From: an uncultured Pelagibacteraceae bacterium
GTDB taxonomy: Bacteria; Pseudomonadota; Alphaproteobacteria; Pelagibacterales; Pelagibacteraceae
Direction of reading: 5' to 3'
NCBI GenBank assembly: GCA_902557235.1
Contig: CACDZR010000005.1
Location: 16,613-80,612, forward strand
Length of the DNA: 64,000 nucleotides
The notes under the pieces were generated by a model, which did not search any database, was not told the DNA's origin, and worked only from the letters and a program-made list of their open reading frames with translations. Position numbers and translations under genes: made by a program. Of this stretch, positions 18,103-20,572 are shown piece by piece (positions within the stretch are counted from its first letter, which is position 1; each line of letters starts with the position of its first letter).

Positions 18103-18822
18103 ATGACTAAAAAGATGTTAAATCAAAATGCCAAATATGATCAAAGATTTTTAGATAAAGTAGAGCCAAAATTTGAATTTAGTAATAAGCCAATAAATAG
18201 ACTTAAAGTTGTTAAGGAAAATAGCATTCAAAATAAAACAGCAAAAGAAGAGAGGATTTTAAATCTAAAGAAAAAAATCAATTCAATTCAAGATTGTAAT
18301 TTAAAAGATAATTCTAAAAATTTAGTTATGGGAGATGGTGATATAAATAGTCCTATAATGTTAATTGGAGAAGCTCCTAATGAGAAAGAGGACTTGGAAG
18401 CTAAAACATTTTGTGGCGATGTTGGTGTACTTTTAACCAAGATGCTTTTAGCAATTAACATCAAAAAAGAAAAGGTGTACTCTACTTACTCAATAAATTT
18501 TAGACCTCCGAACGATAGAAAGCCAACCGCTCAAGAAATAAAAAGATATTCAATTTTCCTTAAAGAACATATTTCAATTATTGATCCAAAAATTTTAATA
18601 TTAATGGGTACCACTGCAATGGAGGCTGTAACTGGTCTTAGCAATCAAATTACAAATGAAAGAGGAGATTGGAAAGAAATCATAATTAGAAACAAAACAA
18701 TTCCAGTAATTATCACTTTCAATCCATCTTATTTAATAAGATATCCAGATAAGAAAAAATTCTCATGGGAGGACCTAAAAAAAATAAGAAAAAAAGTAGA
18801 AGATTTGAATATCAAAATTTAA
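18103..18822 (+). CDS. Uracil-DNA glycosylase superfamily protein (type 4-like)
   Basis: 239 aa; IMLIGEAPNEKEDLEAKTFCGDVGVLLTKML, LILMGTTAMEAVTG, ITFNPSYLIRYP. Confidence 0.85.
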   Translation: MTKKMLNQNAKYDQRFLDKVEPKFEFSNKPINRLKVVKENSIQNKTAKEERILNLKKKINSIQDCNLKDNSKNLVMGDGDINSPIMLIGEAPNEKEDLEAKTFCGDVGVLLTKMLLAINIKKEKVYSTYSINFRPPNDRKPTAQEIKRYSIFLKEHISIIDPKILILMGTTAMEAVTGLSNQITNERGDWKEIIIRNKTIPVIITFNPSYLIRYPDKKKFSWEDLKKIRKKVEDLNIKI

Positions 18823-19382
18823 TGAAAATAATTGCTGGGGTTGATGAAGTCGGTCGAGGAAGTTTAGTTGGACCAGTCTATGCAGCTGCAGTTATTTTAA
18901 AAAGTTCTATAAATACAAAATTACTTAAAGATTCGAAAAGCATATCAAGTGCTAAACGCAAAGTCTTATTTGAACATATCAAAAAAAATTCAATATGGGC
19001 AATTGGAAAAGCATCATTAAAAGAAATTGAAAAATTAAATATTTTAAATGCCAGTTTATTAGCAATGAAAAGAGCAATAAAAAAACTCAAGAAAAAACCA
19101 TCACACGTTTTAATTGATGGAAATAAATTGCCTAATATGAAAAATTACAAACTTAAATCTATTATTAAGGGTGACCAAAAAATTCCATCTATTTCAGCGG
19201 CATCAATTATTGCAAAAGTTATACGTGATAAGATGATTTCAGATTTAGGTAAAAAGTTTAAAGGCTATAATTGGCAAAAAAATTTTGGATACGGTACTAG
19301 TCAACATTTAAAAGCTATAAAAATCTTAGGAATTACAAAGCATCACAGAAAAACTTTTTCTCCTATAAACAAATTGAAATAG
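18822..19382 (+). CDS. rnhB: Ribonuclease HII (start trimmed from the ORF track start 18765)
   Basis: MKIIAGVDEVGRGSLVGPVYAAAVIL, LIDGNKLP, GDQKIPSISAASIIAKVIRD; start overlaps upstream stop as TAATG. Confidence 0.95.
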   Translation: MKIIAGVDEVGRGSLVGPVYAAAVILKSSINTKLLKDSKSISSAKRKVLFEHIKKNSIWAIGKASLKEIEKLNILNASLLAMKRAIKKLKKKPSHVLIDGNKLPNMKNYKLKSIIKGDQKIPSISAASIIAKVIRDKMISDLGKKFKGYNWQKNFGYGTSQHLKAIKILGITKHHRKTFSPINKLK

Positions 19383-19452
19383 TTTTCACGTAAAAACACC
19401 ATATGTAGTTGTCGCCATACAAAGTCATACAAAACTAATCTAAATAATTCAA

Positions 19453-19500
19453 TCCTAGGTTGACCCAGGAATCTTTTTGGAGTCTAATTTGTTTTTATAA
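19453..19500 (+). promoter_or_regulatory. Predicted ccrM promoter: TTGACC (19460-19465) - N17 - TCTAAT (19483-19488), with GANTC sites at 19469-19473 (GAATC) and 19480-19484 (GAGTC)
   Basis: Direct motif reading; 17-bp spacing; one GANTC in the spacer and one reaching the -10 hexamer. Confidence 0.6.
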
Positions 19501-19501
19501 A

Positions 19502-20572
19502 ATGAATTTCAACTTAAAAAATAAATTAATTAATGGAGATAGCCTTCAGGAACTTAAAAAAATTCCTGATGAAACTTTTGATTTAATCTTTGCCGACCCT
19601 CCTTACAACCTGCAACTAAAAAGTGAATTAACAAGACCTGATAGATCTAAAGTAAGTGCAGTGAATGATAAATGGGATCAATTTGAAAATTTTAAAAAGT
19701 ATGATGACTTTACATACTCATGGTTAAGCGAATGTAAAAGAATTTTAAAAAAAGATGGGGCTATCTGGGTAATTGGTAGTTATCACAATATCTTTAGAGT
19801 TGGGGCAGCAATTCAAAATTTGGGTTTTTGGATTTTAAATGACGTCATTTGGAATAAAAAAAACCCCATGCCAAATTTTAGAGGAACACGTTTCACGAAT
19901 GCCCACGAGACTTTAATTTGGGCATCTAAGTCTGAAAAATCAAAATACACTTTTAATTATCAATCCTTAAAGTGTTTAAATGACGACCTCCAAATGAGAT
20001 CTAACTGGGAATTGCCGATTTGTAATGGTTCCGAAAGACTAAAAAAGAACGGTAAAAAAGTGCATTCTACCCAAAAACCTGAGGCACTACTTCACAGAAT
20101 TTTATTAGCAACGACAAATAAAAAAGATTTTGTTTTAGATCCTTTTTTAGGATCAGGAACAACAGCAACAGTTGCAAAAAAATTAGGTAGAAATTATTAC
20201 GGGATTGAAAAAGAAAAAACCTATTTTAAAGCTGCTAAAGAAAGATTAAATAAAGCAAAATCTATAGAAGATGATAACTTAGATACTATTCAGAACGGTA
20301 GATCTAAACCAAGAATACCCTTTGGTTCTTTGGTTGAATTAGGAATAATTAAACCAGGAGCTACTATTTTTGATAACAAAAAGAAAATTAGTGCAAAAAT
20401 TAGAGCTGATGGCAGCATCAAACATGCTCAAACTGAAGGCTCAATCCATAAAGTAGCAGCTACAATCTTAGGTGCTGAAAGCTGTAATGGATGGACCTAT
20501 TGGCATTATAACTTGAATGGAAACGCAGTTCCTATCGATCATTTAAGACAAAGATTAATTTCTAGTAATTAG
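19502..20572 (+). CDS. ccrM: CcrM-type DNA adenine methyltransferase (GANTC)
   Basis: Start at MNFNLKNKLINGDSL; DPPYN, STQKPEALLHRILLATTNKKDFVLDPFLGSGTTATVAKKLGRNYYGIE, C-terminal RAMA-like GSIHKVAATILGAESCNGWTYWHY. Confidence 0.95.
   Translation: MNFNLKNKLINGDSLQELKKIPDETFDLIFADPPYNLQLKSELTRPDRSKVSAVNDKWDQFENFKKYDDFTYSWLSECKRILKKDGAIWVIGSYHNIFRVGAAIQNLGFWILNDVIWNKKNPMPNFRGTRFTNAHETLIWASKSEKSKYTFNYQSLKCLNDDLQMRSNWELPICNGSERLKKNGKKVHSTQKPEALLHRILLATTNKKDFVLDPFLGSGTTATVAKKLGRNYYGIEKEKTYFKAAKERLNKAKSIEDDNLDTIQNGRSKPRIPFGSLVELGIIKPGATIFDNKKKISAKIRADGSIKHAQTEGSIHKVAATILGAESCNGWTYWHYNLNGNAVPIDHLRQRLISSN

Follow-up and report, generated by a model that had tools for sequence, protein, structure and literature searches.

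Does the cell-cycle methylase gene of a SAR11 bacterium carry the target sites of its own product within its promoter, and might the methylation state of these sites control its expression? SAR11 bacteria are among the most abundant in the sea, and we examined the question in a 64-kb stretch of DNA (64,000 nucleotides; hereafter, the window) from an uncultured Pelagibacteraceae bacterium, in which two closely spaced GANTC sites precede ccrM. The reading that we favor, at a probability of roughly 0.7, is that the region upstream of ccrM is an ancestral, methylation-sensing core promoter that would tie autoregulation of the methylase to replication. The locus comprises the following features.

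18822-19382, + strand: rnhB (ribonuclease HII), the co-directional neighbour upstream of ccrM
19448-19454, + strand: TTCAATC element directly 5' of the -35, with which it forms a TCAA-N7-TTGA dyad
19460-19465, + strand: -35 element TTGACC, whose TTGAC serves as the alignment anchor
19469-19473, + strand: GANTC site 1 (GAATC), in the spacer, centred at about -24 from the predicted transcription start
19480-19484, + strand: GANTC site 2 (GAGTC), overlapping the -10, read directly in the sequence
19483-19488, + strand: -10 element TCTAAT, separated from the -35 by a 17-bp spacer
19495-19501, + strand: predicted transcription start and very short leader
19502-20572, + strand: ccrM, GANTC adenine methyltransferase, assigned by Pfam, NCBIfam and structure alignment

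The ccrM product combines the Pfam domains N6_N4_Mtase (PF01555) and, at its C-terminus, RAMA (PF18755), carries DPPY in its catalytic domain and aligns over nearly its full length to the CcrM-DNA structure of Caulobacter crescentus (6pbd, E 2e-141). In this alignment the base-recognition residues of the Caulobacter enzyme (DPPY, Arg44-Pro45 and Met122-Pro123), whose roles in reading GANTC have been described (PMC6787082), are identical in the window protein. The NCBIfam CcrM model NF050803 scores the protein at 578 bits, below its curated equivalog cut-off of 830, which we read as the probable mark of a divergent CcrM rather than of a different enzyme because the model is named for the Caulobacter form. 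Relatives retrieved with this protein bear the names Pelagibacteraceae or Ca. Pelagibacter, which puts the window in a Pelagibacter genome. Among relatives, the cultured Ca. P. giovannonii NP1 has 99.86% of its GANTC sites fully methylated, and GANTC methylation is also documented in an environmental Pelagibacter genome (PMC9516812). Domains, structural alignment and recognition residues together support the CcrM-type call made in a first-pass annotation of this sequence, which had also described the promoter as TTGACC-N17-TCTAAT with GAATC in the spacer and GAGTC across the -10; reading the sequence, we find every one of these elements at the positions it gave. The promoter lies inside the 119-bp gap between rnhB and ccrM, the two GANTC sites start 11 bp apart and the ATG of ccrM is at 19502. 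Transcription would begin at about 19495, leaving a predicted 5' UTR of some 6-8 nt, in keeping with the leader of a few nucleotides envisaged earlier. An alternative in-frame TTG start upstream, at 19460, was rejected, as the lengths of the open frame differ among relatives.

The paired sites stand in a sequence that is otherwise poor in GANTC. A comparison with expected GANTC density, proposed at the outset, showed the window to be depleted (78 sites versus 177 +/- 12 in dinucleotide shuffles), and the pair at 19469 and 19480 is the only one within 15 bp across its entire length. In the coding DNA of a complete Pelagibacter relative (G012) the observed/expected ratio of GANTC is 0.43, a depletion more severe than for any of the others in a set of eight comparable motifs, and in its intergenic DNA the ratio is 1.13; depletion in coding and retention in intergenic sequence is the usual footprint of CcrM (PMC3973325). 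The same complete genome contains one match to TTGAC-N2..5-GANTC-N4..7-GANTC, at ccrM.

To follow the sites through SAR11 we anchored on TTGAC 126 Pelagibacter loci, representing 112 distinct promoters, and 24 loci of a second SAR11 family (f2), representing 14. Both GANTC sites proved strongly conserved in this alignment of related ccrM upstream regions, a check that the first-pass annotation had suggested: site 2 is kept in 110 of the 112 Pelagibacter promoters and all 14 of family f2, site 1 in 107 and 11, and both together in 105 and 11, respectively. Their spacing in Pelagibacter is 11 bp (76 promoters) or 12 bp (29), and the middle base of site 1 varies (A in 78, C in 20, G in 6, T in 3) while the flanking GA and TC are retained. 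On a tree of 112 tips, parsimony placed 3, 0, 5, 0 and 2 changes at the G, A, N, T and C of site 1, which shifted by 1 bp about four times without loss. These patterns support the view that selection keeps GANTC as a recognition site and not as one fixed sequence.

Across the 112 Pelagibacter promoters, columns +21 to +28 (AGTCTAAT) are nearly or fully invariant, the base before TTGAC is invariably G, the sixth base of the -35 is C in 79% and the TTCAATC element is essentially invariant. An additional upstream GANTC occurs in 58/112 Pelagibacter promoters, mostly at -24, and in 14/14 of family f2, at -14 or -15. The ATG follows 41-42 nt past the start of TTGAC in 107/112 Pelagibacter promoters and 35-36 nt past it in 13/14 of family f2. 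TTCAATC-NN-RRG has a single intergenic match in G012, at ccrM, and TTCAATC was rejected as a regulon motif, although it may also precede gcrA in some Pelagibacter.

Beyond SAR11, we sampled 88 more alphaproteobacterial genomes, taking a single ccrM upstream region per genome. TTGAC was present within 200 bp upstream of ccrM in 72 of them, and GANTC offsets from it peaked at +8 (22), +9 (13), +10 (9) and +19 (39), with at most 6 at any other offset. Site 2 (+18 to +20) was found in 42 of the 88 regions, in 39 of them at exactly +19, and site 1 was also present in 35; random anchors gave means of 5.4 (maximum 12) for site 2 and 1.75 (maximum 6) for both sites. The 39 promoters with GANTC at +19, which by hand count represent 27 families, all continue as C-A-N-N-N-T, whose A and T fall at -11 and -7 of a -10 hexamer spaced 17 bp from the -35. 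This continuation was not a criterion in their selection; it is found in 39/39, and GANTC is therefore fused to the -10 element. A second GANTC at +8 to +10 accompanies 32 of these 39, a third at -20 to -12 (near -16) accompanies 30, and in 11 the ATG lies at +35 to +37 from TTGAC. As transcription is expected to start near +35, many such ccrM mRNAs would be leaderless or nearly so. Relative to this class-wide form, site 2 of Pelagibacter is offset by 1 bp against the -10, hence the TCTAAT of the window, with C in place of A at -11, a critical position. In about half of the regions sampled across the class, site 2 is missing from its fixed place. An arrangement found in 39/88 regions and 27 families does not bear out the initial notion of a minimal loop peculiar to a streamlined genome.

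The architecture also looks nearly private to ccrM, as judged from pattern searches. TTGAC-N14-GANTC-A-N3-T, searched in 289 genomes of the class, is rare: no genome has more than a few matches, and many of these are at chance level. Of the matches listed, at least 48 lie directly upstream of ccrM, a lower bound obtained by hand matching, and listed matches with an extra GANTC at +6 to +12 sit at ccrM wherever the position of ccrM is listed, with two exceptions (G228:C23 and G320:C149). A wider Pelagibacter regulon of the same architecture was not found in G012, where other combinations of -35/-10 and GANTC looked like chance and the paired form occurred only at ccrM. One candidate, the mraZ promoter of the dcw cluster in G012 (L199:17449-17571), with three GANTC sites, one of which overlaps TTGACTC, was set aside, as it is not conserved in most relatives.

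From this anatomy and the selection that maintains it we infer a dependence on methylation, together with a likely sign of the feedback and candidate readers. Two CcrM targets, three in many relatives, would act within a -35/-10 promoter, the first lying in the spacer and the second joined to the -10, which places methyl marks where sigma70 and, if present, GcrA contact the DNA. Passage of the replication fork would leave the ccrM promoter hemimethylated, and CcrM would then restore full methylation. If the two states differ in promoter strength, synthesis of CcrM would be coupled both to replication and to its own product. The likelier sign is a burst in the hemimethylated state followed by shut-off, a negative feedback that fits the reported behaviour of Caulobacter ccrM (PMC10073500). 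The opposite, activating sign is argued by Caulobacter ftsZ and mipZ, where promoter methylation activates transcription (PMC3708114). The promoter would spend most of its time in one state, because nearly all GANTC sites are fully methylated in growing NP1 (PMC9516812). The marks may be read by GcrA, by RNA polymerase directly, or by both. Methylation-controlled autoregulation, as first proposed for this locus, thus fits the CcrM type of the enzyme, the conserved sites and the short leader, and loses its wording as a minimal loop and its exact Caulobacter parallel.

The reader is where the main alternatives lie. Plausible, though short of even odds, is activation through GcrA, in which the sigma70-bound protein would read m6A in the spacer and -10 so that the methylated promoter is on and the feedback positive. 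GcrA, which binds sigma domain 2 and methylated promoters (PMC7403470), was found in 85 of 101 genomes of SAR11 relatives, the window's own included (G000:C11:4238-4672, 137.7 bits), and the DNA-binding and sigma-binding domains of the SAR11 proteins are conserved and align to solved GcrA. As in GcrA-type promoters, GANTC in the window lies between the -35 and -10 of a sigma70-type promoter, and site 1, centred at about -24, occupies the same place as the GANTC of podJ P2 (PMC4287350). Read on the bottom strand, site 2 of the class-wide promoters is TGAKTCR, close to the extended GcrA motif YGAKTCG, and a 2021 motif scan, which looked for YGAKTCK close to genes in 13 alphaproteobacterial genomes, proposed that ccrM belongs to the core targets of GcrA and ceased to be one in Caulobacterales (PMC7987155). 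Against such activation, the Y and G flanks are missing from the Pelagibacter sites, and in the window neither gGAATCt nor gGAGTCt matches YGAKTCG on either strand. C. crescentus GcrA regulates many genes, whereas this pattern is almost exclusive to ccrM. Site 2 is moreover retained in genomes without detectable GcrA: the architecture occurs in 35/74 class genomes with GcrA versus 7/14 without (Fisher p = 1.0), that is, with no association between the two in this sample. When the 14 genomes apparently lacking GcrA, some of them incomplete, were searched again with the DNA-binding domain, no credible GcrA emerged, while a positive control matched.

Since the architecture persists in half of the sampled genomes that have no detectable GcrA, RNA polymerase itself has to be considered as a direct sensor, with m6A in the -10 (and spacer) changing how sigma70 binds or how the promoter melts and no reader protein involved. 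We regard this as somewhat doubtful when taken alone. It would account for the fixed register in which site 2 is fused to the -10, with C-A-N-N-N-T in 39/39, and has precedents in IS10 and perhaps in MamA sites of Mycobacterium that overlap -10 elements (PMC3701705), but by itself it does not account for the conservation of site 1 in the spacer or for a third site near -16, and with the 1-bp shift of GANTC against the -10 in Pelagibacter the methyl groups are not identically placed. Quite improbable is a third alternative, in which spare CcrM would bind the paired sites and block RNA polymerase, methylation state being secondary: targets about one helical turn apart across a core promoter, nearly private to ccrM, would suit an enzyme that is a dimer and opens DNA at GANTC (PMC6787082), but CcrM would have to stay stably bound after methylation, and over a thousand rival GANTC sites compete in the genome. 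Chance, or conservation of promoter sequence independent of methylation, can hardly be right and is already contradicted on the sequence evidence: conservation of TTGAC and of part of site 2 is to be expected from their place in the core promoter, but GANTC is depleted across the genome, the GA and TC of site 1 persist while its N varies and its spacing shifts, and the class-wide positional peaks rise far above the random-anchor controls.

The methylation-sensing promoter that we favor resembles several known systems in part. The ccrM promoter of C. crescentus reportedly has two GANTC sites and is expressed when these are hemimethylated (PMC10073500), so that the parallel drawn in the first-pass annotation holds for the gene and for the presence of GANTC in its own promoter. 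It does not extend further: Caulobacter-like upstream regions (L353 and L354) have a CtrA box, TTAA-N7-TTAA, with two adjacent GANTC sites and no TTGAC, whereas a search for this box with at most one mismatch found none in the 190 bp upstream of a ccrM 98% identical to the window's (L351), and Pelagibacter reportedly has no ctrA ortholog (PMC2877005). GcrA-activated sigma70 promoters of C. crescentus (mipZ, ftsZ, podJ and ctrA P1) likewise place CcrM sites near or between the -35 and -10, mipZ with two juxtaposed GANTC sites (PMC3667746), and SAR11 too encodes GcrA. In contrast to these promoters, the ccrM promoter has GANTC joined to its -10 in one fixed register, a pattern that is nearly confined to this gene and that also occurs in genomes without detectable GcrA, and neither GANTC site at ccrM in the window matches YGAKTCG. 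In MamA-affected genes of Mycobacterium tuberculosis and the IS10 transposase promoter with its Dam site, m6A likewise falls in or next to the -10 at a fixed position (PMC3701705). There, however, other methylases and sequences are involved and the regulated gene is not the methylase. Some restriction-modification methylases, e.g., CfrBI, have their own recognition site in their own promoter, so that the methylase product marks its own promoter as at ccrM, whereas CcrM, a cell-cycle methylase, is an orphan with no partner restriction enzyme.

A broader proposal, rather unlikely in our estimate, is that in Alphaproteobacteria the promoter of ccrM arose as an epigenetic thermostat private to the methylase, with RNA polymerase-sigma70 itself reading CcrM methylation of the GANTC fused to the -10. 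GcrA would on this view be an add-on and not the founding reader, and the CtrA version of Caulobacter a later replacement. Our results agree with the earlier motif scan (PMC7987155) on ccrM as the gene concerned and Caulobacterales as the exception; new relative to it, from sequence comparison, are the exact architecture, the fusion to the -10, the near-privacy to ccrM, the evidence from the N position in SAR11 and the lack of association with GcrA. A literature search, with most subscription journals outside its scope, found no earlier description of this ccrM architecture. The findings suggest that SAR11, reportedly without CtrA, may still tie production of its cell-cycle methylase to replication, and that the textbook ccrM of Caulobacter appears to be an exception within its class. 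The rule of TTGAC-N14-GANTC fused to CANNNT offers a testable sign of ccrM autoregulation across the class.

Other Pelagibacter promoters showed GANTC patterns of their own. Upstream of gcrA (L151-L160 and L259-L268) there is hardly any GANTC; subsets of these loci carry a DnaA-box-like sequence, TGTTGATAA, or GATTGAA, the reverse of TTCAATC. In Caulobacter, gcrA is under DnaA control. Upstream of clpX (L309-L338), GATTC occurs shortly before the start codon in 30/30 loci, as GATTCG in nearly all, and the promoter contains GAGTC in about half of the 30; an earlier study had singled out clpX as the sole gene for which a GcrA motif was predicted in most alphaproteobacteria (PMC2877005). A locus with three GANTC sites, considered as a replication origin, was rejected as such: the GC-skew minimum lies elsewhere, and the locus is the umuDC promoter, preceding genes for a UmuD-like S24 peptidase and a Y-family polymerase. 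Its three sites, spaced 12 and 11 bp, are conserved in the 27 loci examined (L380-L406), next to a DnaA box (TGTGGATAA) and a LexA-type GTTC-N7-GTTC box, a layout that suggests possible input of methylation and DnaA into SOS mutagenesis.
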